Position numbers and translations under genes: made by a program. Under the pieces are notes generated by a model. It did no database searches and was not told the DNA's origin. It worked only from the letters and a program-made list of their open reading frames with translations. DNA of 50,880 nucleotides from Actinomycetales bacterium (lineage in GTDB: Bacteria > Actinomycetota > Actinomycetes > Actinomycetales > Actinomycetaceae), in assembly GCA_015655375.1 (NCBI GenBank), contig JAATFD010000017.1, positions 1 to 50,880 on the forward strand, read 5' to 3'. How positions within the stretch are numbered: position 1 is the first letter of the stretch; every line of letters starts with the position of its first letter. Positions 11,724-32,902 of this stretch are shown in pieces.

Positions 11724-13253
11724 TCACTTCACGTCGTCGTCCACCCAGTCGAAGGTCCGCGTGACGGCCTTCTTCCACAGGCGATAGGTACGCTCGACCT
11801 CGTCCTTGGGCAACGACGGCGTCCACCGCTTGCCCTCCAGCCAGTTCGCGATGACATCGTCCGTGCCCGACCAGAAGCCCACGGCGATACCGGCCGCGTA
11901 GGCGGCTCCCAGCGCTGTGGTCTCCACGACGACCGGACGCACGACATCGACGCCGAGGATGTCGGACTGGAACTGCATGAGCAGCTCGTCGTTCGTCATA
12001 CCGCCGTCGACCTTGAGCTCTGCCAACGGAATGCCGGAGTCCGCGTTCATGGCCTCGACGACCTCACGGGTCTGGAAGGCCGTGGATTCCTCCACTGCAC
12101 GGGCGATGTGGCCCTTGGTCACATAGCGGGTCATGCCGACGATCGCGCCCCGGGCATCATCACGCCAGTAGGGGGCAAACAGGCCGGAGAACGCCGGAAC
12201 GAAGTAGACCCCGCCGTTGTCTTCGACCGAAGCCGCAAGCGCCCCGATGTCGGAGGACTTCTCGATCAGCCCAACGGAATCGCGCAGCCACTGCACCAGG
12301 GAGCCTGCAACGGCGATCGATCCCTCCAGGGCGTACACCGGCTTGTCGTCGCCCAGCTTGTACAGGACGGTCGTCAACAGGCCGTTTTCGGAGAAGACCG
12401 GCTCCGAGCCGGTGTTCATCAGCGTGAAGCAACCCGTGCCGTAGGTGTTCTTGACCATGCCGGGATCAAAGCATGCCTGACCGAAGGTCGCGGCCTGCTG
12501 GTCGCCGAGAATGCCCGCGATCGGGGTGTCGATAAGCAGACCATTGGGACGGCCATAGCCATAGACCTCCGAGGAGGACTTGATCTCCGGGAGCATCGAG
12601 ACCGGGATGCCGAAATCCGCACAGATGTCCTCACGCCACTGGAGCGTGCGCACGTCCATCAACAGTGTGCGCGAGGCGTTCGTGACGTCGGTGATGTGGA
12701 TCCCTCCGTTGACCCCACCAGTCAGATTCCACAGCACCCAGGTGTCGGGCGTACCGAAGTAGAGGTCTCCGGCTTCGGCGCGCTCACGGGCGCCCTCGAC
12801 GTTGTCCAGGATCCACTTGATCTTCGTGGCCGAGGGGTATGTCGAAATATTCTCACCGGTGATCTGACGGTAGCGTTCTGTCCCCAACGGATCACCGGCC
12901 GCGATCTCACGGACGATGGCTCCCGTGCGAGCGTCCTGCCACACGATTGCGTTATAGACCGGCTCGCCGGTGTTCTTGTCCCACACGATCGTGGTCTCAC
13001 GTTGGTTCGTTATTCCGACGGCTGCGAGCTGGTGGCGGTTGATGTTCGCCTTCTGCAGGGCCTCAGCAACGACGGATCTCACCGAATCCCAGATATCGAT
13101 AGGGTTGTGCTCGACCCAGCTGGGCTTCGGGAAGATCTGAGGGAATTCCTGCTGTCCGACAGAAACGATCTCACCGGAATGGTTGAAGACGATCGCGCGC
13201 GAGGACGTGGTCCCCTGGTCGATCGCCATGACGTACTTTGCTTCATTTGCCAT
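11724..13253 (-). CDS. glpK: Glycerol kinase
   Basis: About 509 residues. I chose the ATG at 13253 because AGAAGGA is 11 bases upstream; another ATG three codons earlier (13262) leaves only two bases. The FGGY family is clear: phosphate-binding [26 protein letters not shown], then [13 protein letters not shown] and the C-terminal [18 protein letters not shown]. The match to canonical glycerol kinases ([20 protein letters not shown]) is close, so this is the ATP:glycerol 3-phosphotransferase of the cytosol. It lies 87 bases after glpF and feeds glpD upstream. A second, more divergent FGGY kinase at 21.4 kb belongs to a different pathway. Confidence 0.96.
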
Positions 13254-13340
13254 GTCAGTCATTGTCCTTCTCGTGGAATGGTGGGCGGATGCCAGATGTC
13301 AGTGCACGGGTGGTGATGGCGTCGCCAAGTGCCTCCGGGC

Positions 13341-21359: not shown

Positions 21360-21427
21360 TTGACAGCTCCTGCCGCCAAAGATAGTTTGAGTCCACCAAT
21401 TCATTCATCTCTGAATAAGAATGCTCA
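21360..21427 (+). promoter_or_regulatory. Promoter and operator of the FGGY kinase gene
   Basis: TTGACA (21360-21365) and TAGTTT (21383-21388) are separated by exactly 17 bases, a near-consensus vegetative promoter. Just past the expected start, ATTCA-TCTC-TGAAT (21403-21416) forms an inverted repeat, and a TGAATAA half-site with a downstream AAT (21412-21424) resembles sites at the two other promoters of this locus. Confidence 0.7.
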
Positions 21428-21440
21428 TCGAGGAGCGTCG

Positions 21441-22892
21441 ATGACGGACCAGTGCTATCTCACGATCGATCAAGGAACGACGAACGGCAAGGTCCTCGTC
21501 GTCAGCACGGACGGAGCGATCCTGTCCAAAGTCTCCTACCCCGTAGGACTCTCGCTCCCGCAACCGGGATGGTATGAACAGGACGGCGAAGAGATGTGGT
21601 CAGCGCTCTGCGACGCCATGGGACAAGCTCTCGCGCAGGCCGGCAACGTCACAGTCCGGGGGCTTGCTCTGTCGGTCCAGCGGGAATCCGTCATTGCCTG
21701 GGATCGGACGACGACTCACGCGCTCGCTCCCCTGATCGGCTGGCAAGATGCCCGGAGCGCGAACATCGTCGAGCGGCTGCTCGACCCGTCGTTGGAGGAG
21801 AGGATCCGTTCGATCACCGGTCTTCGTCCCAATCCGATGTTCTCGGCGCCAAAGATGCGCTGGGTGTTGGACGACCTCCACCGCAGGAAGGAAGACCCGG
21901 ACAACGTCCGACTCGGCACAGTGGATTCGTTCCTCGTCGCGAAGCTGACCGACGGCACACGTTTCATCACCGAGGTCGGGTGCGCGTCACGAACACTCCT
22001 GCTCAACATCAGGACCCGAATGTGGTCGGCTGAGCTACTGGAACTATTCGAAATTCCAGAGACCGTCCTTGCTGAAGTCCACGACTCGACCGAGAATCTC
22101 GGGACCACGCGGTCAGTTCCGGGAATTCCAGACGGGATCCCGATCCGAGCTGTGCTCGGAGACTCCCATGCCGCTTTGTTCGCAGAGTCCTCGGGACGGG
22201 AGGGAATCGCGAAGGCGACGTACGGGACCGGCTCGTCGGTGATGGTGTGCACCGGTTCTCTTCGTGAGATCTCCCGAACGGTCTCCACGACCATCGGCTG
22301 GTCCTTCCACGGACCGTCGTACGCCCGTGAGGGGAATATTCTTGCTGCGGGTGCCGGGATGGACACCCTCGCCAATATCCTCGGCGTCGGCCACGGCCGA
22401 GCATTGGATGAGTTGGCCGGGAACGCCGCCGGTTCTGCCGGAATCTGCGTCGTTCCCGCATTCTCCGGTCTTGGAGCGCCCCACTGGTCATCCTCGGCCG
22501 TCGGGATCATCACCGGGCTGCGACGGGAAAGCACCCGCGCCCAGGTTGCCAGGGCCGCTGTCGAATCCACACCCCACCAGGTCTGCGACGTCCTCGATGC
22601 GTTCGCCAAGTCCGGCTCGCCGATCCATGAGCTTCGCGCGGATGGAGGCCCCTCGAGGTCGAGGCTCCTCATGCAGTCCCAGGCCGACTTTGCGGGGATC
22701 CCGGTGCGCGTCGCGGAAACCGCCGAGTTGTCGGCATTGGGAGTCGCGAGTCTCGCCATGCAGGCCGACGGATTTGGGCCCTTCCCCGTCCCGGCGGAAA
22801 CCCGCGTCTACGAACCGCAGATCTGCGAGGACGAACGGCAAAGCCGCCGCAAGAATTGGAAAGAAGCCCTCTCACGATCGATTGGAGCCTGA
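21441..22892 (+). CDS. FGGY-family carbohydrate kinase of the sugar island
   Basis: 483 residues from the ATG at 21441 (GAGGAG six bases upstream). FGGY kinase fold: DQGTTNGKVLVVS at the N-terminus, QRESVIAWDR, GWQDARSANIVERL, then TYGTGSSVMVCTG and LRADGGPSRSRLLMQSQADFAGIPV, the FGGY signature 2. It is glycerol/xylulose-kinase-like but clearly divergent from the glpK product at 11.7 kb, so it is not a second glycerol kinase in the simple sense. It is transcribed alone from a strong promoter with a TGAATA operator shared with the transporter and isomerase units. The likely substrate is the ketose made by the isomerase at 30.8 kb; D-apulose is one candidate. Confidence 0.88.
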   Translation: MTDQCYLTIDQGTTNGKVLVVSTDGAILSKVSYPVGLSLPQPGWYEQDGEEMWSALCDAMGQALAQAGNVTVRGLALSVQRESVIAWDRTTTHALAPLIGWQDARSANIVERLLDPSLEERIRSITGLRPNPMFSAPKMRWVLDDLHRRKEDPDNVRLGTVDSFLVAKLTDGTRFITEVGCASRTLLLNIRTRMWSAELLELFEIPETVLAEVHDSTENLGTTRSVPGIPDGIPIRAVLGDSHAALFAESSGREGIAKATYGTGSSVMVCTGSLREISRTVSTTIGWSFHGPSYAREGNILAAGAGMDTLANILGVGHGRALDELAGNAAGSAGICVVPAFSGLGAPHWSSSAVGIITGLRRESTRAQVARAAVESTPHQVCDVLDAFAKSGSPIHELRADGGPSRSRLLMQSQADFAGIPVRVAETAELSALGVASLAMQADGFGPFPVPAETRVYEPQICEDERQSRRKNWKEALSRSIGA

Positions 22893-22967
22893 AATCCAAG
22901 TCCCAATAATCGTGAATTCAAATGAGTAGGCCCACAGAATGAGCGTTCCCTCACGTGAAAAATCACC

Positions 22968-23005
22968 GATGAGGTCCACCTGAAAAGAATCCGGCGGACC
23001 TCATC
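22968..23005. terminator. Terminator between the kinase and esterase genes
   Basis: GATGAGGTCC (22968-22977) pairs perfectly with GGACCTCATC (22996-23005), with an 18-base loop that can extend the stem by two pairs. It lies between converging genes and is followed on the plus strand by TTC-rich sequence. Confidence 0.75.
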
Positions 23006-23029
23006 TTCAAACCGTCCCAGAAAAATGAG

Positions 23030-24610
23030 TCACTGAAGCAACGATCCGATCCAGTCCGTTGTTGCGCTCAGGCTCTTACCGGCAATACGCAACTCGGAGC
23101 CATCAACATCAACATCCACACGAGGGAAGGGATCGAAGCACATGACCTTACCGTATTCCGCATCGCGATCCGTTGCCTTCCATTCGGGCCAATAAACGCC
23201 TGTCAATGTACTTGGAATTCCCGAACGTGCAAACTGCACCCACGCATGCTGAACTTGCCGAGAAAACTCTACGGCATCCGAAGTATGACCGTTGAGACCA
23301 GAGGCTTCCTCCAGATTCCCGAAGACCAAAGCGACGTCGAGCTCATGAGTCGACATCAGCACTCCTCCATCGACCGGCGTTCTGAGAAGATGCCGATATC
23401 TCCAAACCTTTCCTTTTGCCCGCGCCCGAGCAACGGCCAGTTCTCTTGTCTGACCACAGAACATCAAGTCCGATACAACGCGAACGGCAGTCTCATAATG
23501 ACTTATACCGGGATGATTCGATCTGACAGCGGACAAGAGATCCTCAGCCGACGACTGGCCCAGCAGACTCGCCAGGCGCTCCGACATCTCACCGTCGTCC
23601 AGCGACGACAGCGCGGCATGCGATCCCGCCAAAAAGAGCGCAGCCTCGGTATCAAGATCGCCGACTATCACCGGAACATCAGAACTCAACTCGCACGCAG
23701 AACTTGATCCAGGCTGTCCGATCACAACTCGCCCGTCCACGCATGCGCCAAAACTGGTCATGGATTCTTGAGCGACATTATGATACGCCCGCATCAAATC
23801 TTTCAGATCCATTTTTGCAACAACATCAGCCGCCTCTGGTGCACTCACTCCGAGTTCCGCACACAAGCGGTCTCGAGCAGCGCACGCATTCGAAAGAGAA
23901 AGCAGCTTCGCGCTTGCACCGGAGGACAGAATTGCCTTATGAAACAGCCCCCTGGCCTTCGGCATCGCCAAGAGTGCCGAAATCTTCATCGCACCTCCAG
24001 ACTGACCAAAGAGTGTGACGTTCTCGGGATCTCCTCCAAATTCTTCGATGTTGTTCCGCACCCACTTCAGAAGACAAACAACATCCAGCATCCCTACGTT
24101 TCCTGAACCTGCAAACTTATCAGATGGATCATCGTTCCAGTATGTATAACCCAGCACACCAAGACGATGATTGAACGAGACAACAACAACGTCTCCCACG
24201 TCGGCCAAAGAAGTCCCGTCAATCGACGGCGACGAGCCGGAATTTGCAGAGAATCCACCGCTGTGAACCCACACCATCACCGGCCGTCGGGAACCATCCT
24301 GAACTCCATGCGTCCACACATTTGCGAACAGGCAGTCCTCACTCTCTGGATAGTTGTCAGTCAGACCAATCTTTCTAAGAAATGGATTCTGAGCTCTATC
24401 AGTTGCAGAGTCAGGAGGATCTTGCGGACATGACGGACCAAACTCGAAAGCATTGGCGACATCAATCCAAGGAGACGGTTCACGAGGCCGCTGAAATCGA
24501 TACTCGGCAGTGTCAGCTCCATATCTAATTCCTTTGAATACGTGAACTCCATGGCGTGTCCACCCACGCACAGGACCATAGGTTGTATGGGCAATTATTT
24601 CGTTATACAT
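23030..24610 (-). CDS. Type-B carboxylesterase
   Basis: 526 residues from an ATG at 24610. Carboxylesterase family marks: EDCLFANVW near residues 91-99 (type-B signature 2), oxyanion-hole HSGGF at 116-120, and the nucleophile elbow FGQSGGA with Ser204. A later STHELDVALVFGN supplies the probable catalytic His and GDLDTEAALF the acid. There is no signal peptide, so it acts in the cytosol after import. The gene follows the nucleoside-hydrolase gene by four bases and shares its AT-rich composition (29 of 60 bases G/C in the line at 24001), unlike the rest of the window. It probably removes an acyl group from the transported compound; the true substrate is unknown. Confidence 0.88.
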   Translation of the reverse strand: MYNEIIAHTTYGPVRGWTRHGVHVFKGIRYGADTAEYRFQRPREPSPWIDVANAFEFGPSCPQDPPDSATDRAQNPFLRKIGLTDNYPESEDCLFANVWTHGVQDGSRRPVMVWVHSGGFSANSGSSPSIDGTSLADVGDVVVVSFNHRLGVLGYTYWNDDPSDKFAGSGNVGMLDVVCLLKWVRNNIEEFGGDPENVTLFGQSGGAMKISALLAMPKARGLFHKAILSSGASAKLLSLSNACAARDRLCAELGVSAPEAADVVAKMDLKDLMRAYHNVAQESMTSFGACVDGRVVIGQPGSSSACELSSDVPVIVGDLDTEAALFLAGSHAALSSLDDGEMSERLASLLGQSSAEDLLSAVRSNHPGISHYETAVRVVSDLMFCGQTRELAVARARAKGKVWRYRHLLRTPVDGGVLMSTHELDVALVFGNLEEASGLNGHTSDAVEFSRQVQHAWVQFARSGIPSTLTGVYWPEWKATDRDAEYGKVMCFDPFPRVDVDVDGSELRIAGKSLSATTDWIGSLLQ

Positions 24611-24613
24611 CCT

Positions 24614-25612
24614 TCACTCCTGCTGCCACTTGTCAAATTCGGAAAACGTGTCGAACATGTCTTCGAAAAGTAGCTGGGTGTCAAGACTTGTGTATATCCG
24701 CATCGGGCGAGCATCTTGCACCTTTCGATAGGTGCCGTCATCTGCGATAAACGGGCGAGGTCTCACAACATAATCACTATTCGCAGTATCCGGTTCAAAA
24801 GTTGTTGTCAAAGACGGAATGAGAACCAACGGTTGATCACCAAGCACATATATCTGGCCGGGATGGATCCCATAATCATTCACCCTTCGGCGTACGGCAG
24901 CAATCTCGTGAAGAAGATAAAGACCCAACGAACCGGCCTCACTCAACCGTCTTCTCAATGTCACCACGGGAAGAGCAGAACGTCGATATGTATCACGCGG
25001 AATTTGATATAACAAGACATTTGTCTCGTTAAATACATATTGTGCAGCCGCGAGATCTTGCGAAAGATTATACTCCATGTCAGGTGCGCCGTCAGGGGCG
25101 TATGCAAGATCCGGGTGCTCCCCTCCACCAATCCACACGACCGTCATACGATTGGCGATCTCAGGGTGCGCCTTGAGGGCCCTCGCCACATCACCCAGTC
25201 CCCCACCAGCAGCAACGAATAGTGGACGCTCGTCTTCGGCACAAGCTGCCTCCACCAAGAGCCGCGACCCCGCCGTTGGACCATCAAATTCGGCGAACCC
25301 CCGGTCGTCACCACTCTCGACACGAACTCCTTTGAGCCCGATCACTTCCAGAAGCTCCGACACCCGCTTTCGGCCACACTCAACAGCCGAGCTGGTCGTG
25401 TTCCAGCTGTCGTCCTCCCGCAACCGGGACACCACCACTCCCGTTACTTCGTTGCTCTCACACAAAAGCTGATGGACAAGCTGGAACATGTCATCAGGGT
25501 CCCCAGCAAAGTCGTTGTCTACCACAACGCGCACCCTTGGAGCCCCCATCTGGTGACCCGTAGGAATCCACGGATGCGTTCCGTAGTTCCATTCTTTGGA
25601 AACCGTTGACAT
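24614..25612 (-). CDS. Nucleoside-hydrolase-fold protein, divergent
   Basis: 332 residues from an ATG at 25612, overlapping the transporter stop by one base (TAATG). The Asp cluster of inosine-uridine nucleoside hydrolases is present near residues 32-41 as VDNDFAGDPDDMFQL, but with extra residues compared with the usual DTDPGxDDA. FVAAGGGLGDVARALKAHPEIANRM matches the family's GPLTNLA/ALxxxPEI region, and WIGGG follows. Near the C-terminus GDQPLVLI stands where HDPLA is expected, so the His is missing. The fold cleaves N-ribosyl bonds with Ca2+, and the changes suggest another furanoside. It sits between transporter and esterase genes in one operon. Confidence 0.82.
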   Translation of the reverse strand: MSTVSKEWNYGTHPWIPTGHQMGAPRVRVVVDNDFAGDPDDMFQLVHQLLCESNEVTGVVVSRLREDDSWNTTSSAVECGRKRVSELLEVIGLKGVRVESGDDRGFAEFDGPTAGSRLLVEAACAEDERPLFVAAGGGLGDVARALKAHPEIANRMTVVWIGGGEHPDLAYAPDGAPDMEYNLSQDLAAAQYVFNETNVLLYQIPRDTYRRSALPVVTLRRRLSEAGSLGLYLLHEIAAVRRRVNDYGIHPGQIYVLGDQPLVLIPSLTTTFEPDTANSDYVVRPRPFIADDGTYRKVQDARPMRIYTSLDTQLLFEDMFDTFSEFDKWQQE

Positions 25613-27057
25613 TACTTCACTCTCCTAATCGGAATGATCGCGAGTGCCGAAAGAACAACCGCCACAATTGACATCGTGAATACGGAGCTATACCCGGATG
25701 TCAACACGACCAATTGTCCCGCAGCAACAGGGGCGATCATTTGCCCGATGTTTGAAGCCACGTTCACCACTCCAAGATCACGTCCAGATGCAGACTTGTC
25801 GGGCAGCACGTCGATCACTAATGCGACGTCGACCGCAATGTATATTCCATACGCTGCAGCAAAGATGACGTAGAACACGAAGAAAGCCGGAAGCGTTCGA
25901 ATCGACAAGGGAATTATGAGAACCGCGGCCATAATGAATGATGAGCCGATAACGAACGGTTTTCTCTTTCCAACTTTGTCCGACAGCTTTCCCGCAAATA
26001 GCAACATAACAAGTTGACCTGGCAGAGACGCTACAGAAAGCACAGATACAGTAGTGTTCGCCGCAGATGCGGACAGCGCTGGTTGCAAATGCGATTGCAA
26101 GATGTAGAGTGTGAACTGTGTCACTCCCGTATATCCAAAATACATCATGAATCGCGCAATCCAGACCCAGCGGAAGTCTCGATCTTTGAGCGCCGTTCCG
26201 AATCCGCGAATGAATTCTTTCCAGCTAAAAGGCTCCAGTCTCAAGTCCTTTGAGGAGCGATCCTTAGCTAGGGTGACAAATAGCAGCGCCCCAACGACAA
26301 CTGCGAACACGAAGATAAAATACGTGTTGAGGCCAAGCTTGTTGAAAACGAGCCCCGAGACTAGCATGCCACTTGCAAACCCTGCGGTCATTCCAATACC
26401 GGAGATCCCGGAAACCATTCCGACACGGTTCTCTGGCACCCGGTCCGCCACCGTGGTGCTCAACGGCGCCTGCATAAAGTTGAGCGAAATCTGGCTTACG
26501 GTCCAGAACAGCGTGAGCATCGCGATGGTATTCGAATACCGTAGAGCGATCATGAACACTCCACCGAGAACACCACCAAGCACGATCCAGAAGGCACGCC
26601 GCCCCGACTTCGAGCGCCAACGGTCAGAGAGGACGCCAACGATTGGCTGAGCGAACAGAGTGAAGAAGGACCCAATTCCCATCATCAAGGAGATGGCGGA
26701 CGCGCGGGACGCTTCATATTTTCCAAGAAGGTCAATCAGCCCTTGCTGTTCCGCTGTCGCAGTTGCTGTCCCCGCCTTGACCTGATTGTTCAGATCGGTC
26801 AATTGGGCGAGATCGTTGACGGTACTGATTGTCGTGTCGCTGAAATAGTGTCTGAACTCAACGGTCTGAACAGAATTCGGAAGCAGAACACCCGACATTG
26901 CCGCATAGCACGCGAACAAGAACACGCTGGCGATCGCCAGCGAAATCAGGTATTGATAATAGGGACGGCCACCGAGGTACTTCATTGACGTACCCGGCTG
27001 CGTCGGTTCGCCGATCTCTGGATTCTTCACTGTCGAAGAAACTTGCTTAGTCAACAA
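25612..27057 (-). CDS. MFS transporter, sugar-type (GPH/SLC45-like)
   Basis: 481 residues, about 12 membrane segments. A motif-A-like loop GVLSDRWRSKSGRR follows the early helices, and a second, GKLSDKVGKRKPFV, appears in the C-terminal half. Both fit MFS transporters of sugars and glycosides. A soluble loop of about 60 residues between the first two helices (VQTVEFRHYFSDTTISTVND...) is unusual and faces outside, where it could bind ligand. It is the first gene of a three-gene operon (transporter, nucleoside-hydrolase-like, esterase) with its own strong promoter. It is AT-rich like its partners, which indicates joint transfer. The substrate is unknown; an acylated sugar conjugate is my inference. 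Confidence 0.88.
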   Translation of the reverse strand: MLTKQVSSTVKNPEIGEPTQPGTSMKYLGGRPYYQYLISLAIASVFLFACYAAMSGVLLPNSVQTVEFRHYFSDTTISTVNDLAQLTDLNNQVKAGTATATAEQQGLIDLLGKYEASRASAISLMMGIGSFFTLFAQPIVGVLSDRWRSKSGRRAFWIVLGGVLGGVFMIALRYSNTIAMLTLFWTVSQISLNFMQAPLSTTVADRVPENRVGMVSGISGIGMTAGFASGMLVSGLVFNKLGLNTYFIFVFAVVVGALLFVTLAKDRSSKDLRLEPFSWKEFIRGFGTALKDRDFRWVWIARFMMYFGYTGVTQFTLYILQSHLQPALSASAANTTVSVLSVASLPGQLVMLLFAGKLSDKVGKRKPFVIGSSFIMAAVLIIPLSIRTLPAFFVFYVIFAAAYGIYIAVDVALVIDVLPDKSASGRDLGVVNVASNIGQMIAPVAAGQLVVLTSGYSSVFTMSIVAVVLSALAIIPIRRVK

Positions 27058-27097
27058 ACTCTCCCTCGTTGGAGACGACGAGCTGCTATGCCCGAGG

Positions 27098-27151
27098 TGC
27101 GATTATTTATTCACCTATGGATAGGTTAGTCCTTCGTGGGCGAATATGCAA
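27098..27151 (-). promoter_or_regulatory. Promoter and operators of the transporter operon
   Basis: On the minus strand TTGCAT (27151-27146) and TAACCT (27128-27123) are 17 bases apart. A perfect repeat ACCTAT-GG-ATAGGT (27113-27126) overlaps the -10 element. Just downstream TGAATAAATAATCGCA (27113-27098) resembles the sites before the kinase and isomerase genes. Confidence 0.65.
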
Positions 27152-27251
27152 CGAGTTTCGGTAGATATGCACCTTCTGGCACACCAGGTCATGCGCTCCT
27201 CGGGCACCTGTCGCTGGAGAGGCGTCTCGGGCACGCGATGACTGGTGCTGC

Positions 27252-27677
27252 TTGCGGTGGCCCAGAAGGGTCATCATGGGTCCACCACTCAACTGTCCCG
27301 AGGCTAGGTACGCAAGATGTCCGTGTCCCGTTCTTCCCCGTCGCGTCCAGCGAAGGATCCGCACGAGTGCGATTCGACCTCGAAGCGGATCGCTCACAGA
27401 TGTCTCGAAGACAGCTCTCCACCATCTCATTGACGCCGAGGCGACCGCCATTGTTCGTGATGAACCGCGTACTAGCGCACCACAACGCGACGGGAAGCGC
27501 CCCCAGACGATCGAGGCTCCCGCTGGACGGCTCGGTCCTGATACTCCATGTCCGCGGAGGAGCTCGTTCTTCTCCGCTGTGTTGGACCCGCGCAGGCCAG
27601 CCGACACGACCTTGTGGTCCATCATCGCGTGCCTGGCAGGGCCCTCGGACGAAGAGCGGACCCGTCGGGTCCCTTGA
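27252..27677 (+). pseudogene. Decayed IS256-family transposase, N-terminal fragment
   Basis: One frame carries an IS256/mutator-type stretch: LTDVSKTALHHLIDAEATA, then QRDGKRPQTIEAPAG and FFSAVLDPRRPADTTLWSII. These align in order with the family's LIEAEAxAxIGA, QRNGxRxKTxSTxAG and FFPxLLEPRRRxDxALxAVI regions. Small gaps are visible: the IGAxRYER step is shortened and the IPKxRxG stretch is degraded. The frame stops at 27677, before the STRKVDDL region and all catalytic DDE residues, so only about residues 30-135 of roughly 400 survive. No terminal inverted repeats were found. It marks an old insertion at the edge of the AT-rich transporter block. I see no other gene between 27060 and 27850. 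Confidence 0.6.
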
Positions 27678-27851
27678 CACCGCCCTCCTCCACATCCACC
27701 AGAGAGGCAGGCCTCCAACGTAATGGTTTGATCCGCAAGAGGCGCCCTTCTCTCGGGCAGAATCGCAGAACGACAGGAGATCGAAGACGGACAATCCCCT
27801 CGCGAGGGCATCGACATCCCGGCGAGCGGATTCGACGTATCTGTCAGTTCC

Positions 27852-28862
27852 TCAGTCCTTCTGGTCGTGCAGCTTCCGAGCAGTGTCCAGATCGGTGACC
27901 AGCACAGTCGCCCACCCACCGCGCACCAGCCCGAGAAGCGCGTTGTACTTCCGTTCCCCACCTGCCACGGCAATCCGACGCGGAACCTCACGCAGCAGCT
28001 GCGCTCCGATGGCAATGACCCGCGAGGAGAGCGGCGCTTCGATCTGACCGCCCATCTCATCGAAGAAGCTCAAGCAGATGTCGCCGACCGCACTGTATTT
28101 GCGCAGCTCAGCACGATCACCATCACTGATGACGTTGCCCGATTCCCTCAGCAAGGGTGAGGGCTCGACAGAGCCGATCCCCGCCAAAAGGACCGTCAGG
28201 TCGGCCCACTGATCGGTGATCGAGGAAACGACGGAGTCTTCCAACAGTGTCTCGCGCGCAGCATTGCCGCCCACGACCGCCGGTGCGGGAAGGAAGACCG
28301 GATCAGCGCCCGTCGAGCTTGCCAGACGCGAAATCAACCGTGTTGCGCTGACTTGTACCTTGGGGTTCCCGAGGCCGCCCACCACCTGAATGATGCGATC
28401 GGCGACCTGTGACTTGAACGGTCGCAGACTGTCCACAGCAGCAAGCAGCGTCTCCGACCAAGAGGAGATCCCGATCGTGTCCCCACCGGTCAACGTCGCT
28501 TCGAGATACGTTGCGGCGGCAGCGCCCAATGAGGGCACAACATCCTGAAGGCCCATCGTGTCAACGACAACGACCTCAGAGAGCCCATAGCGTTTCTGCA
28601 GAGCCTCCTCCAGATCTGTGTAGACACCGGCAGGCAGCGTCACAGTCGTGCGAACGACGCCCAGGTCCGAAGCCCGCTTGAGCAAGCGGGAGACGCGTGG
28701 CTGCGAGATGTGCAGATCGGAGGCAATCTCCGCCTGACGAAGCCCTTGTTCGTGGTAGAGGCGCGCGACCTTCGTCATCAGACGCAGCTGATCGTCACTG
28801 CCCGGCCCGAGACGGGACCACCCCGATCCAGACATGCCCGCCATCGACTTCTCCTCCGTCAT
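27852..28862 (-). CDS. SorC/DeoR-type sugar-binding regulator of the sugar island
   Basis: 336 residues from an ATG at 28862 (AAGGAG nine bases upstream; an ATG six codons later also has a good site). The helix-turn-helix reads VARLYHEQGLRQAEIASDLHISQPRVSRLLKRASDLGVV. The effector domain (PF04198) follows with GISSWSETLLAAVDSL, VVGGLGNPKVQVSATRL, LAGIGSVEPSPLLRESGNV and the closing VAGGERKYNALLGLVRGGWATVLVTD. It lies 83 bases after the transketolase genes on the same strand and has a palindrome upstream. It is the natural candidate to read the TGAATA motifs at the three local promoters, with a phosphorylated pathway intermediate as ligand. That assignment is inference from position. Confidence 0.9.
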   Translation of the reverse strand: MTEEKSMAGMSGSGWSRLGPGSDDQLRLMTKVARLYHEQGLRQAEIASDLHISQPRVSRLLKRASDLGVVRTTVTLPAGVYTDLEEALQKRYGLSEVVVVDTMGLQDVVPSLGAAAATYLEATLTGGDTIGISSWSETLLAAVDSLRPFKSQVADRIIQVVGGLGNPKVQVSATRLISRLASSTGADPVFLPAPAVVGGNAARETLLEDSVVSSITDQWADLTVLLAGIGSVEPSPLLRESGNVISDGDRAELRKYSAVGDICLSFFDEMGGQIEAPLSSRVIAIGAQLLREVPRRIAVAGGERKYNALLGLVRGGWATVLVTDLDTARKLHDQKD

Positions 28863-28915
28863 GCCCTGCGACTCCTTGGGGGCTCAACGAGGTCGAGCGA
28901 ATGGATGGGCACTCC

Positions 28916-28925
28916 ACGATATCGT
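28916..28925. promoter_or_regulatory. Palindrome upstream of the island regulator gene
   Basis: ACGATATCGT is a perfect 10-base palindrome 54 bases upstream of the regulator start. On the minus strand it overlaps a possible -10 element TACGAT (28926-28921). It may be an autoregulatory site or part of an internal promoter. Confidence 0.35.
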
Positions 28926-28945
28926 AACCGCGCCCGCTGCCCGCG

Positions 28946-29884
28946 TCAGTCGGCCAGGGTCCTCGCCCTCGCCGCAATGGCCTCGGGCGTGATCCCGAAA
29001 TGCTCGAAAAGCCAGTCGACCGAGCCCGTCGGAGCAAACTCGTCACCGACCCCGACCATCTCGACGCGCGTCGGATGCTCCCGGACGACAACCTCGGCGA
29101 CGGCGCCTCCCAGCCCGCCGACGACAGCCTCCTCGACGGTCACGATGCCACGCGTCTCTCTCGCCGCCCGCACGACCGCGTCCTCGTCGAGGGGCTTGAT
29201 CGAGGGCATCGAGATCACACGTGCGCCGATCCCCTCTCCCGCCAGGATGTCAGCAGTCCGGAGGGCAAGAATGACCGTCGTCCCCGTGGCGATCACCGTG
29301 ACATCCTCACCCTCACGCAGCTGAGTGGAGACCCCGGGAACGAACGTGTAGTCGCCCTCGTGGATCTCAGGGATCTTCATGCGCGCAATGCGGATGTAGA
29401 CCGGTCCGTCGTATTCGGCGGCCCATCGGATCACCTGCTCGGTTTCCTTAGGGCCGGACGGGCTGAGCACGGTCAGGCCCGCGATCTCGCGCATCCAAGC
29501 CAGGTCCTCCAGCGAGTGGTGCGTTGCCCCGAGCTCTCCGTAAGCCATCCCCGGTGACTGGGCAATGAGCTTGATGTTCGCCTCCGTGTAGCCGGCGTCG
29601 ATCTTCACCTGCTCCATCGCGCGGGCCGACAGAAAGGATCCGGCGCAGGAAACGAAGGGGATGTACCCGCCGTTGGCGAGCCCGGCGCCGACGCCCACCA
29701 TATCCTGCTCAGCAATGCCGACGTTGATCGTCCGGTCGGGGAACCGGGCCTCGAAGTCGTTGAGCTTGGAGGAACCGACCGAATCATTGACCACGGCCAC
29801 GATCCGCGGGTCATTCTCAGCCAGGTCACTCAAGGACTCGGCCCACGTGGTCCGGCAATCGAACAGTTCTGCGGCCTCAGTCAT
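28946..29884 (-). CDS. Transketolase, C-terminal subunit (pyrimidine-binding and C domains)
   Basis: 312 residues starting on an ATGA overlap with the N-terminal subunit gene. It has the pyrimidine-binding domain of transketolases: VVNDSVGSSKLNDFEARFPDRTINVGIAEQDMVGVGAGLA, where the Glu of AEQDM activates the thiamine cofactor, then SPGMAYGELGATHHSLEDLAWMR. The C-terminal domain (VTVIATGTTVILALRTAD; GIVTVEEAVVGGLGGAVAE) follows. Split transketolases of this size are used in dedicated catabolic operons rather than the pentose phosphate core. In the known D-apiose route such a pair cleaves apulose 4-phosphate; here the acceptor and donor are unknown. Confidence 0.9.
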   Translation of the reverse strand: MTEAAELFDCRTTWAESLSDLAENDPRIVAVVNDSVGSSKLNDFEARFPDRTINVGIAEQDMVGVGAGLANGGYIPFVSCAGSFLSARAMEQVKIDAGYTEANIKLIAQSPGMAYGELGATHHSLEDLAWMREIAGLTVLSPSGPKETEQVIRWAAEYDGPVYIRIARMKIPEIHEGDYTFVPGVSTQLREGEDVTVIATGTTVILALRTADILAGEGIGARVISMPSIKPLDEDAVVRAARETRGIVTVEEAVVGGLGGAVAEVVVREHPTRVEMVGVGDEFAPTGSVDWLFEHFGITPEAIAARARTLAD

Positions 29885-30828
29885 CGGCCACTCCCTCCGT
29901 CGAGCTCAGCTAAGGCTTGGGCCACATGAGCCTCGTCCGGGATCTTGTGGTGCCAGGCGACCTGGTCACGCATGTAGGAGACCGGATACCCCTTGTGCGT
30001 GTCCGCGATGATCGCCGTCGGGCGACCAGCGATGGAGGGAACCGAACCGAAGGCGTCGAGCAATTGCCCGTAATCATGCCCGTTGATCGACAGGACCTCC
30101 CACCCGAAGGCGCGAAGCTTGTCTCCCAGAGGTTCGAGTTCATTGGTCTCGGCGACCGAGGCTCCCTGCTGAAGCCGATTGCGATCAATGAATGCACAGA
30201 GGTTCGCCAAGTGCCGATTGCCTGCGGTCATGAAGGCTTCCCAGTTGGATCCTTCTTGCAGTTCCCCGTCGCCCAGGAGGACGAACGTGCGCCGAGGTGA
30301 ATGCGACAGCGTACCCGAGATGGCCACTCCCACGGCGACGGGAAGTCCGTGTCCGAGGGGACCTGTGCTTGCTTCGACAGCTGTCACCTTGCGACGCGAC
30401 GGATGACCGTTGAGCATCGAGCCGCCCCTCGCGAAAGACCGCAGGACAATCGGATCGAGGTAGCCACCGACGGCCAGCGTCGTGTAAAGCGCATTGGCCG
30501 TGTGTCCCTTCGACAGGATCAATCGGTCGCGCTCCGGGTCCTGCGCCTCGACCTGCTCGGGGCTGATGTTCATCACCGCGAGGTAGAGCGTCACGAGCGC
30601 GTCGGTGATCGAGTACTCGCCCCCGACATGACCGAGGTTCGCCTCGTGGATCGTCTGGATTCCGCGACGGCGTACTTCGGTCGCCGCCCGTCTGAGATGA
30701 GCGATCGCCGCGGCTCGGTTCGAACCTGGCGGCACGGGCCCGAGCACCTCGATCTCGCGGTCGGGCGGCGGAAGCAGCTCGAGATCCCCCGGGTCGTGGA
30801 CGAGTCCGAACGGTGGGACATATGTCAT
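29881..30828 (-). CDS. Transketolase, N-terminal subunit (TPP-binding)
   Basis: 315 residues; the start overlaps the isomerase stop by one base (TGATG). The thiamine diphosphate-binding motif runs LLGDGELQEGSNWEAFMTAGNRHLANLCAFIDRNRLQQ with the GDG and N ligands for Mg2+. HVGGEYSITDALVTLYLAVM, LSKGHTANALYTTLA and GPLGHGLPVAVGVAIS are further conserved transketolase blocks. It pairs with the next gene to make one complete active site between subunits. A first 35-residue segment rich in Pro (FGLVHDPGDLELLPPPDRE) precedes the fold and is not typical. It acts in the cytosol on a ketose phosphate produced by the isomerase and kinase. Confidence 0.9.
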   Translation of the reverse strand: MTYVPPFGLVHDPGDLELLPPPDREIEVLGPVPPGSNRAAAIAHLRRAATEVRRRGIQTIHEANLGHVGGEYSITDALVTLYLAVMNISPEQVEAQDPERDRLILSKGHTANALYTTLAVGGYLDPIVLRSFARGGSMLNGHPSRRKVTAVEASTGPLGHGLPVAVGVAISGTLSHSPRRTFVLLGDGELQEGSNWEAFMTAGNRHLANLCAFIDRNRLQQGASVAETNELEPLGDKLRAFGWEVLSINGHDYGQLLDAFGSVPSIAGRPTAIIADTHKGYPVSYMRDQVAWHHKIPDEAHVAQALAELDGGSGR

Positions 30829-31832
30829 CAGTGAGAACCCCCCATGGACGAAAGCAGCGCGTCCTGAACCAATCGTTGGGCGGCCATGGCATCCTGGCGC
30901 TCCTGAGCCTGGCGCAGACCCTCGACGTCGAGGGTGTCAAGCGCACGATGGAGTGCCTTGAGAAAGCGGATGGAGGTGTTCGCCGCATCCACCGGGTCCT
31001 CGCGGAATGGGAACTGGTCGAGCTGCCAGACACCGTGCCATCCGTTGAGCCGCAGCGTGTGGAAGAACTCGAAGATCTCCGTCATATGAACGGTGCCGAC
31101 GACGAGATCATCGTCCCATGCGCGCAGATTGTCGTTGACATCCATGCCGTAGAGCAAACCGTGGTCGATCAGCAGTTGGGCTGCATCAGCGGGAGACTCT
31201 CCTCCGTAGAGGGAATGCCCGAAATCGAGGAGCACACCGATGTTGTCGAGCCCGATCTCCTGGATGCCAAGAATGGAACGCGCTGCCGAGTCCCACGTCA
31301 TCTTCACGCGCGGTTCACGAGGCTTGTATTCGATCGCGAACTTGCGATCGGGATGCGCCGAGGCCAACTCCTTCATGCCCTCTTTGGCCAACTTCCACAG
31401 ATCCCCGTGATTGACCTGGAAGGGGTAGTCCCACCCGTCCTGACCCGGCCAGATCTTCGTGTAATGCGCGCCAAGCTCGGCGGCCGCCTCGGTCGCCGCA
31501 TGCATCCGGTCGAGCGCCGAAATACGCAGCTTCGGATCTGGATTGGTGAAAGCGCCTTTGCGCCACTCCCGCATATAGATGTCGGGCGTCACGCCGATCG
31601 CCTTGAGGCTCGAAGCTTTGAGAGCATCCTTGACCTCCGAAGTCGAGACCCCGTCGGTGAAGGGAAAATTCAGATCAACATAATGAAGGTCGTCGACCTC
31701 GGCTGCTAGCGCGATCTGAGCCAGCGTCCCCTTTTCTGCCCCATAGCCGTCGGTCGCGTAGCGATCGATATAGCTGGCAAAGTGCCACAGCCCGGCCCCG
31801 AACTCGGGCATCGTCGTTGATGTCATCCCCAT
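30828..31832 (-). CDS. Xylose-isomerase-like TIM-barrel sugar isomerase
   Basis: 334 residues from an ATG at 31832 (AAAGGG seven bases upstream). It belongs to the PF01261 TIM-barrel group: metal ligands are visible in [13 protein letters not shown] (Glu), [14 protein letters not shown] (Asp/His) and [22 protein letters not shown] (Asp and His). The [13 protein letters not shown] stretch is more like non-classical xylose, rhamnose or apiose isomerases than XylA proper, which is longer. It would convert an aldose to a ketose in the cytosol. It is the first gene of an operon with both transketolase halves. Apiose, xylose and lyxose are all possible substrates; I cannot choose from sequence alone. 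Confidence 0.85.
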
Positions 31833-31959
31833 GGTGCGCCCTTTCTCCGCGGCCGCCCCGTCCGGACAACGGCAGTGTTGATGACTGGCAGTGCCACGAC
31901 CCGCGAAACCCGAACGATCAGGGTCGCAGCAACCTGATACTCACAGAGACTATCGATCA

Positions 31960-32021
31960 TGAATATCTTCAGTCACTAATGAATATATGTTCAGCCTAGG
32001 GTCTCGTACTTACTCTGTCAA
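31960..32021 (-). promoter_or_regulatory. Promoter and paired operators of the isomerase-transketolase operon
   Basis: On the minus strand TTGACA (32021-32016) and TAGGCT (31998-31993) have a 17-base spacer. Directly downstream are two TGAA/TTCA inverted repeats: TGAATATATGTTCA (31980-31993) and TGAATATCTTCA (31960-31971), read on the plus strand. They lie where a repressor would block transcription. The 160 bases between here and the gene start at 32156 show only the -10 of the next gene. Confidence 0.7.
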
Positions 32022-32155: not shown

Positions 32156-32902
32156 ATGCACGGCGACCGCGGACTCTTCGATCCTGACGACGACACGGAC
32201 GAAGAGAACACGATCACCCAACCGCCGCGGACTTCGGCCGACCAGGATGGGCTCTTCGACATCCCCGCCGGCGTGCGTCGCCCTCGTGCGCGGGTCGTCA
32301 TCCTCACCGGGCCGTCAGGATCGGGCAAGACATCGCTCACCACGCGAACCGGAATCACGTCTCTCTCCCTCGACCACTTCTACCGCGATGGTGACGAGAC
32401 CGGAATGCCGATGCTGCGCGAGGGCCTCGTCGATTGGGACGATCCGAGGTCCTGGAACGCCGACGACGCGATGCAGGCACTCCTCGACCTGTGCCGGACC
32501 GGGCAGACCGAGGTCCCCATCTATGACATCCCGACGAACCGGCGTACGGCCACACGTCGAATGGTTCTCGACGAGGACGTTCCTCTGTTCATTGCCGAGG
32601 GGATCTTCGCCGCAGAGCTCGTCCACCGCCTGGAGGACGAGGGCGTCCTCGCCGATGCCCTGTGCATCGCGCGCTCACCGCTGCGCAACATGTGGTTCCG
32701 CCTCCTGCGCGATATGGCCGAAGCTCGCAAGCCAGTGCCGGTGCTGCTCATGCGGGGCACGCGTCTGGCGCGCGAGGAACCAGCGAAGGTCGCCTATTGG
32801 ACCTCACGCGGATGCCGCCCGATCGGCTCGCTGGACGAGGCCGCCGCCGCCCTCGAAGCACTCGCACGGGCCGAACAACGCTCCCACGACTCCGGACTTT
32901 GA
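32156..32902 (+). CDS. Uridine-kinase-like P-loop protein
   Basis: 248 residues. A Walker A loop GPSGSGKTS occurs at residues 52-60 after a 45-residue acidic, disordered leader (DPDDDTDEENT). The rest follows the nucleoside-kinase pattern: SLDHFYRDGDETGMP, DWDDPRSWNADDAMQALLDL, IYDIPTNRRT, FIAEGIFAAELV, then a basic lid (RNMWFRLLRDMAEARKP). These match actinobacterial proteins annotated as uridine kinase or ATP-binding protein. The reaction may be ATP-dependent phosphorylation of uridine or cytidine, but this short branch lacks tested members. It is transcribed away from the sugar island and is probably unrelated to it. Confidence 0.8.
   Translation: MHGDRGLFDPDDDTDEENTITQPPRTSADQDGLFDIPAGVRRPRARVVILTGPSGSGKTSLTTRTGITSLSLDHFYRDGDETGMPMLREGLVDWDDPRSWNADDAMQALLDLCRTGQTEVPIYDIPTNRRTATRRMVLDEDVPLFIAEGIFAAELVHRLEDEGVLADALCIARSPLRNMWFRLLRDMAEARKPVPVLLMRGTRLAREEPAKVAYWTSRGCRPIGSLDEAAAALEALARAEQRSHDSGL

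Follow-up and report, generated by a model that had tools for sequence, protein, structure and literature searches.

A probable D-apiose utilisation cluster in an actinobacterium, with a nucleoside-hydrolase-fold protein as candidate apioside hydrolase

Which sugar is a bacterium equipped to use when a xylose-isomerase-like protein (ISO), a sugar kinase and a two-gene transketolase lie beside a carboxylesterase (EST), a transporter and a distant relative of the nucleoside hydrolases? The question is raised by positions 21360-32021 of a 50,880-nucleotide stretch from an Actinomycetales bacterium (contig JAATFD010000017.1, assembly GCA_015655375.1), the whole of which is called the window here. 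We propose that the sugar used is very probably apiose, which is branched and of plant origin, and that the nucleoside-hydrolase-fold protein (NHL) stands out as a strong candidate for an enzyme of a new type that releases apiose from plant molecules. To the reading as a whole, in which a non-oxidative D-apiose utilisation cluster carries its own supply arm, we assign a probability of about 0.65. The pectic polysaccharide rhamnogalacturonan II (RG-II) contains apiose, and to our knowledge few apiose-cutting enzymes have been described. More than 1,200 plant metabolites are reported to carry the sugar (PMC10602602). According to the list of open reading frames (ORFs) and family profile scans, the region holds eight intact ORFs, all of the families that a preliminary description of this DNA had named:

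21441-22892, + strand: FGGY kinase, putative apulose kinase (PF00370/PF02782), convergent to the rest; the ORF from 21360 opens with TTG, translation more probably beginning with the ATG at 21441
23030-24610, - strand: EST, type-B carboxylesterase (COesterase; PF00135, 297 bits), doubtful candidate for a substrate deacylase
24614-25612, - strand: NHL, putative D-apioside hydrolase, subfamily B, DPDD type (PF07632, 37.0 bits; PF01156, 34.2 bits)
25612-27057, - strand: major facilitator superfamily (MFS) transporter, putative importer of an apioside or apiose (PF07690, 133 bits)
27852-28862, - strand: SorC/DeoR-type sugar-binding regulator (PF04198, 179 bits)
28946-29884, - strand: transketolase C-terminal half, aptB-like (PF02779/PF02780)
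29881-30828, - strand: transketolase N-terminal half, aptA-like, putative apulose-4-phosphate transketolase subunit (PF00456)
30828-31832, - strand: ISO, xylose-isomerase-like TIM barrel, predicted D-apiose isomerase (apsI-type), first gene of the core operon

The core, namely ISO, the kinase, the transketolase halves and the regulator, very probably encodes the non-oxidative D-apiose (transketolase) route, as the preliminary description had proposed, and its arrangement is not due to chance, since it is found again in dozens of loci. ISO shares 70% identity over 328 amino acids with its counterpart in a Pectobacterium carotovorum locus, which also holds a kinase, a split transketolase, a regulator and a ribose-type importer, and whose transketolase halves reach 79% and 72% identity with those of Escherichia coli SE15. 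It does not group with the D-xylose enzymes, reaching 74.5 bits against the D-xylose isomerase equivalog TIGR02631 (cut-off 447), and it also falls far below the rhamnose isomerase cut-offs. Compared with PDB sequences it scores 543 bits against 3KTC, and at most 74 bits against the next ones, which are true xylose isomerases. The 3KTC entry itself is labelled only 'xylose isomerase' and belongs by sequence to the apiose isomerase group, and the deposit label is probably wrong. Taken together, the kinase, transketolase halves and regulator are 36-44% identical to the SE15 cluster and 38-41% to P. carotovorum: the kinase 38% to that of the SE15 apiose cluster, the N half 38% to SE15 aptA and 40% to P. 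carotovorum, the C half 44% to SE15 aptB and 41% to P. carotovorum, and the SorC-type regulator 39% to the P. carotovorum regulator. Among named families the kinase scores best with glycerol kinase models, but it remains below the cut-off of the GlpK equivalog TIGR01311 (401.5 bits, cut-off 590.35), and the genome's real GlpK is encoded at 11724-13262 (719 bits). In a tree of which only the placement of the window kinase relative to GlpK was used, the outgroup branches being meaningless (row L163 is a wrong-frame translation), it clusters with the kinases of other ISO loci, apart from the genome's own GlpK (Shimodaira-Hasegawa-like approximate likelihood ratio test, SH-aLRT, 97).

The paper defining these D-apiose enzymes is said to be that of Carter et al. 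(2018). As stated in the portion of PMC13001218 dealing with these clusters, that of P. carotovorum WPP14 carries apsI for D-apiose isomerase, the named genes of the SE15 cluster include aptA and aptB, Escherichia clusters are without apsI, and growth on D-apiose was found for WPP14 and for cluster-positive E. coli strains, SE15 not being among those tested. Judging from cluster content, we take the isomerase gene of the P. carotovorum locus to be the published apsI. For wider comparison, the best 80 of 332 stretches related to ISO were divided into 33 gammaproteobacterial loci (here called enteric, Gilliamella included) and 47 non-enteric ones, the latter actinobacterial by title except L061, an 'uncultured bacterium'. 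Genes of these loci were called by codon scoring, longest-ORF calling being unsuitable at high G+C; the codon-scored caller misses EST and NHL of the window, which are lower in G+C, and the window genes were taken from the ORF list. All five core families lie within the fetched flanks in 39 of the 47 non-enteric loci, and the kinase, both transketolase halves and the regulator are near ISO in 9 of the 33 enteric ones; in 22 of the 33 (among L050-L099) ISO stands without a nearby kinase, transketolase or regulator. On a Streptomyces plasmid (NZ_CP108139, 98000-121000), ISO, a split transketolase, an FGGY kinase and a regulator are placed amid pectin-degrading genes, with GH28 (glycoside hydrolase, GH), pectinesterase, GH95 and beta-L-arabinofuranosidase-type genes as neighbours, and this region reads as an apiose route within a pectin-degrading cluster.

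If the core handles apiose, what is the role of NHL? The evidence comes mainly from the company that its relatives keep. We searched 396 genomes of the order with a profile built on six NHL proteins, each taken from an ISO locus (E up to 1e-20), and with NF049900, the model for D-apionate lactonase (matches at E up to 1e-20 called ApnL-like), and found NHL in 51 genomes, ISO in 26 and ApnL-like genes in 30. NHL and ISO occur together in 20 genomes where 3.3 are expected (Fisher p 4.8e-15), and still in 17 against 2.8 (p 1.0e-12) after removal of the three genomes that supplied seeds. NHL and ApnL-like genes coincide in 18 genomes (3.9 expected, p 1.4e-10), and NHL with either marker in 34 (6.7 expected, p 1.6e-23); ISO and ApnL-like genes occur together in 4 (2.0 expected, p 0.12). 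Counted by genus (109 genera), 16 of the 20 with NHL hold ISO or an ApnL-like gene, against 3.3 expected (p 1.1e-13). The link is also physical: NHL lies at most 20 kb from ISO in 16 of the 26 ISO genomes, spread over 7 genera and including the genome of the window, and at most 20 kb from an ApnL-like gene in 9 genomes of 5 other genera. NHL relatives were thus found beside the core in other genomes, and the outcomes that the preliminary description had named as refuting did not arise for ISO and NHL. In L132, L136, L137 and L144 NHL directly adjoins the transketolase pair, the run in L137 and L144 being without ISO and kinase.

NHL is also seen with oxidative apiose-type genes. Eight of 20 NHL loci from genomes without a strong ISO match hold them (L105, L106, L107, L109, L110, L111, L122, L124), although in L111 and L122 only ApnL-like and short-chain dehydrogenase/reductase (SDR) genes are labelled, and L149 is a further NHL locus with such neighbours. 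In L110, genes of dihydroxyacetone-kinase, RpiB, TIM, AP-endonuclease-2 and PGDH_C type, an SDR gene, an ApnL-like gene and NHL share a single strand; the labels ApnO, OiaC, LerK, LerI and DerI for such genes are our assumption, made from domain families and single reference proteins from L110. In L105, L106, L109 and L111 the importers encoded next to NHL are 50-79% identical to those of ISO loci. On another contig of the window's own genome (positions 48627-55599), an ApnL-like gene (143 bits, cut-off 750) and genes of the AP_endonuc_2, PGDH_C, dihydroxyacetone-kinase and TIM types lie near a GntR regulator, an arrangement suggestive of an additional, oxidative apiose-type route in this organism.

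Beyond the phylum, a collection of 72,556 plasmid records contains 14 with NHL relatives and 19 with ISO. In the alphaproteobacterium Microvirga ossetica, NHL, a three-gene sugar ATP-binding cassette (ABC) importer, a PGDH_C protein and OiaK-like and OiaX-like genes are carried on one strand (the kinase reaching 575 bits against OiaK, cut-off 700, and the RuBisCO-like protein 453 against OiaX, cut-off 700); on the far side of a divergent regulator lie ApnL (899 bits, cut-off 750) and a Gfo/Idh/MocA gene. This set is repeated in M. lotononidis, where 8 of the 9 genes are 87-98% identical and Gfo 66%. A Rhodobacteraceae strain with the same enzyme set as Microvirga is reported to grow on D-apiose, in a passage that makes no mention of NHL (PMC11747546). 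NHL accordingly accompanies a transketolase route, an oxidative route and a RuBisCO-like route. As far as we know, these three share only D-apiose itself, and this sole common point suggests that NHL acts at or before free D-apiose. A different setting is seen on a Croceibacterium plasmid (NZ_CP156083, 27000-50000), where a nucleoside-hydrolase-like gene adjoins a quercetin 2,3-dioxygenase family gene, among GH1, fucosidase and aromatic hydroxylase genes and with no apiose pathway visible in the region; it looks like a locus for flavonoid glycoside breakdown.

The protein itself is predicted, from comparison of a structure model, to have the nucleoside hydrolase fold. It scores above the cut-off of PF07632 (Sde182_NH-like; 37.0 against 26.8 bits) and exactly at the curated cut-off of PF01156, the nucleoside hydrolases (34.2 bits), to which it is 16% identical (1MAS, RihA/RihB). 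Its DxDxxxDD motif carries a two-residue insertion relative to nucleoside hydrolases. Group I nucleosidases are described as having a His before the last metal-binding Asp, though nucleosidases without that His are described as well (PMC8910321). At this place NHL has Gly258-Asp259, assigned by motif as the profile alignment is shifted one residue there, and the Gly is kept in all 52 members. A profile comparison of NHL with Sde182 aligned 290 columns (E 1.4e-7, probability 94), with Gly-Asp-x-Pro in both; 2YHG (Sde_0182) is a weak sequence match and is not among the fold matches listed. In profile scans no Sde0182_C domain was matched in the window NHL, this domain being present in proteins of L025, L083 and L154, and no PF13204 apiosidase-like domain was matched among the ten window proteins scanned. 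A lactonase function for NHL was considered and rejected, as a lactone is not expected in isomerase-type clusters and most of the oxidative clusters seen here carry a separate ApnL-like gene. The earlier proposal that the protein cleaves a furanosyl bond is an inference well supported by its linkage to several apiose pathways and by its kept active-site residues, and NHL is probably an apioside hydrolase.

In the tree of NHL relatives two subfamilies, A and B, are separated by the midpoint root (18 and 34 rows), and ISO-linked and oxidative-linked members occur in both. Four context labels require 15 changes on the tree, where the minimum is 3 and shuffled labels average 24.4; the context is therefore partly inherited yet has changed repeatedly, as would be expected for a gene passing between pathways that need the same product. 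Within subfamily B the window NHL is placed next to three ISO-linked rows, at modest support (82). In each of L105, L106, L111 and L133 both subfamilies are represented by one NHL, perhaps serving two anomers or two leaving groups. Gly or Cys takes the place of the window's Asp41 in 9 of 17 unlinked rows and in 0 of 35 apiose-linked rows, these rows not being independent. This DPDG/DPDC subtype, as opposed to DPDD, is found in L113, L116-L121, L156 and L160, none of which has a visible apiose pathway, and genes of GH2, GH3, GH42, GH43 or GH78 type occur in 8 of these 9 loci.

Would the glycoside be split inside or outside the cell? The 47 non-enteric ISO loci, which are not independent (five are from Kribbella and over a dozen from Actinoplanes relatives), include 11 with NHL relatives, and these are distributed by importer type: 9 of the 10 loci with a glycoside-type importer (SBP_bac_1 type) have NHL and 2 of the 37 without it (p 3.8e-7), whereas a Sde182-type gene is found in 17 of the 28 with a ribose-type importer (Peripla_BP_4 type) and in 0 of the 19 without (p 8.4e-6). 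The SBP_bac_1 type was verified in L024 (with BPD_transp_1) and the Peripla_BP_4 type in L033 (with ABC_tran), a single locus for either, and the two types presumably stand for import of glycosides and of free sugar. The intake arm of esterase, hydrolase and MFS transporter sketched in the preliminary description has accordingly to be corrected to a local variant, NHL going usually with a three-gene glycoside-type ABC importer.

Many of the Sde182-type proteins (PF07632), which measure about 500 amino acids, show a signal-like N-terminus. Of 188 genomes sampled evenly from the class, 3 have PF07632 (E up to 1e-20), with 6 genes in all, and 9 have ISO; two of the three PF07632 genomes carry it at most 11 kb from ISO, and the third at most 10 kb from NHL and an ApnL-like gene. 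In Pectobacterium's phylum it occurs in 2 of 299 genomes, that genome included. A Croceibacterium PF07632 gene lies 32 bp from ISO, a Sde182-type gene stands right behind ISO in a Pantoea locus, and L154 holds NHL, the importer, a PF13204 apiosidase-like gene and a Sde182-type gene as an unbroken series next to a divergent LacI gene. Counter-cases, where PF07632 genes are not beside ISO, come from Pectobacterium, Pantoea coffeiphila and Serinibacter and from three further ISO genomes with single copies (L151-L153). With the odds evenly balanced in our estimate, the whole clade on this fold (NHL A and B, and probably secreted Sde182/DUF1593 proteins) would be a new glycosidase class splitting O-apiofuranosides, in which the metal-held furanose pocket is reused and the base-protonating His lost, working inside the cell where the whole glycoside is imported and outside where only free apiose is.

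EST and MFS are less constant companions. In 158 compared loci, two of which overlap the window, relatives of EST outside the window occur only in L119, directly before a DPDG-type NHL and with MFS, GH42, GH43 and GH3 genes, and in L171 (Spirosoma), as two copies adjoining a Sde182-type gene; no apiose pathway is visible in either. None was found beside the core in the other isomerase loci examined. This hints at a pairing of esterase and nucleoside-hydrolase-like genes without a tie to apiose, so the acyl-removing step of the preliminary description gains little, and we consider it doubtful, though possible, that EST deacylates the same substrate. MFS relatives occur in L021, L119 and L142. 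EST, NHL and MFS have ribosome-binding-like sequences upstream, as judged by eye; their G+C contents (0.529, 0.538 and 0.521) lie below those of the core genes (0.60-0.65), and the supply arm may therefore have arrived separately. Two further features complete the region:

27058-27851, - strand: 794-bp stretch without a recognisable gene, probably regulatory or remnant DNA
32156-32902, + strand: phosphoribulokinase/uridine kinase family gene (PF00485, 31.7 bits, cut-off 22), divergent from ISO

The 794-bp stretch, between MFS and the SorC-type regulator, borders the core and the low-G+C trio and is core-like in G+C (0.61); codon scoring found no gene in it, and searches found no match to neighbour proteins and no Rfam RNA. 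The PF00485 gene is treated as a flanking gene because it has no relative in the 158 loci compared.

The following scheme builds on gene content, the likeness of the core to apiose clusters, NHL linkage, its predicted fold and its conserved active-site residues, from which we infer the NHL reaction, the substrate, the transporter cargo and the esterase role. MFS would import an apiose-containing plant glycoside, from which EST may remove an acyl group; NHL, as a metal-dependent enzyme, would hydrolyse the apiofuranosyl bond inside the cell and release D-apiose. ISO would then convert D-apiose to apulose, the FGGY kinase would form apulose 4-phosphate, and the two-subunit transketolase would move this into central metabolism, under control of the SorC-type regulator.

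Several observations weigh against this scheme, and some favour other explanations. The window NHL sits on a long branch; the profile seeds from ISO loci favour linked members; phylogeny enters the genome counts only through the genus table; and no ApnL-like match in the order reaches the curated NF049900 cut-off. Neither ISO nor an ApnL-like gene is present in 17 of the 51 NHL genomes, and for 17 of the 52 NHL rows the locus shows no apiose pathway, several of them lying beside GH2, GH3, GH42, GH43 or GH78 genes. Nor is an apiose pathway visible in two annotated Novosphingobium plasmid regions, that of N. resinovorum with NHL beside GH1 and that of strain P6W with NHL beside GH3 and GH43; the Croceicoccus and Spirosoma plasmid PF07632 genes have no apiose genes nearby, and in L100, L136 and L154 a PF13204 apiosidase-like gene near NHL is another candidate for the same task. 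NHL could on such grounds act on, or bind, furanosides in general, arabinofuranosides or mixed plant glycosides for example, and be recruited by apiose clusters only since their substrates occur together with such glycosides; glycosidase-rich loci such as L117-L120, L156 and L160 would suit this, as would the description of Sde_0182 as a furanose-interacting module that does not cleave nucleosides (PMC8910321). We regard it as unlikely, though by no means negligible, for the unlinked members mostly differ at the Asp41 position, and the linked ones accompany several apiose routes that share, so far as is known, no other sugar.

A further explanation takes EST, NHL and MFS for an unrelated, recently acquired cassette dropped into an apiose cluster. 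Their base composition is unlike that of the core also at third codon positions (GC3 0.50-0.61 against 0.73-0.83), the kinase sits beyond the trio on the opposite strand, and EST lacks relatives at other isomerase loci; but NHL, present in 11 of the 47 loci and near ISO in 16 of the 26 genomes, is by itself a usual partner, which makes the cassette improbable, though less so for MFS and EST. A nucleosidase supplying ribose or bases, brought here by accident or along with the uridine-kinase-family gene, would agree with the fold, with the PF01156 score and with the PF00485 gene next to ISO. This is very improbable in view of the linkage statistics, of the PF00485 gene having no relative elsewhere and of the Gly, by motif, in place of the group I His, even if some nucleosidases are described as lacking that His (PMC8910321). 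Scarcely credible, finally, is a core acting on D-xylose, L-lyxose or ribose with a family likeness only to apiose enzymes. The kinase and transketolase are merely 38-44% identical to SE15 and Pectobacterium, and the kinase leans towards glycerol kinase models, but the isomerase matches Pectobacterium closely, the kinase groups with ISO-locus kinases, and PF13204 apiosidase-like genes neighbour some other loci. An apiose cluster with NHL as its apioside hydrolase therefore remains our preferred reading.

In the open-licence literature, we found no paper linking nucleoside hydrolases, inosine-uridine hydrolases, DUF1593 or Sde182 with apiose or apiosidases, and the structurally studied Sde182 relative was left without a reaction (PMC8910321). 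The linkage offers a concrete reaction to propose for Sde182/DUF1593 and related nucleoside-hydrolase-like proteins. If true, a fold familiar from enzymes of N-ribosides would gain a new family of glycosidases, possibly of use in flavour and flavonoid processing, and apiose pathways would be connected with their plant glycosides.

How, then, does the cluster compare with known systems? With the non-oxidative D-apiose cluster (MetaCyc PWY-8089; P. carotovorum WPP14, E. coli SE15) it shares the isomerase (as in Pectobacterium), the FGGY kinase, the split transketolase and the sugar-binding regulator. It differs in having MFS, NHL and EST, in the kinase on the opposite strand, and in being without the DUF2291 protein and the ribose-type ABC importer, the latter being usual but not universal (28 of the 47 non-enteric loci). 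The oxidative D-apiose (apionate) pathways (ApnL, apionate oxidoisomerase, OiaK, OiaX) lack an isomerase, kinase and transketolase like those of the window, but NHL is present there too, in Microvirga and several actinobacteria, partly with the same type of importer. From the nucleoside hydrolases NHL is set apart by its low identity, the Gly for the base-protonating His, the motif insertion and its genomic context. With Sde182/DUF1593 (PF07632, 2YHG) it shares the PF07632 match and the Gly-Asp-x-Pro motif, but those proteins are about 500 amino acids long, the three scanned having a C-terminal Sde0182_C, whereas NHL is single-domain. PF13204 apiosidase-like proteins, which we take to be of the GH140 type, are predicted to act on the same type of bond and belong to a different protein family. 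The cluster is thus a variant of a known apiose cluster type; should its NHL be confirmed as an enzyme of this kind, a known fold would have given rise to a new family of glycosidases.

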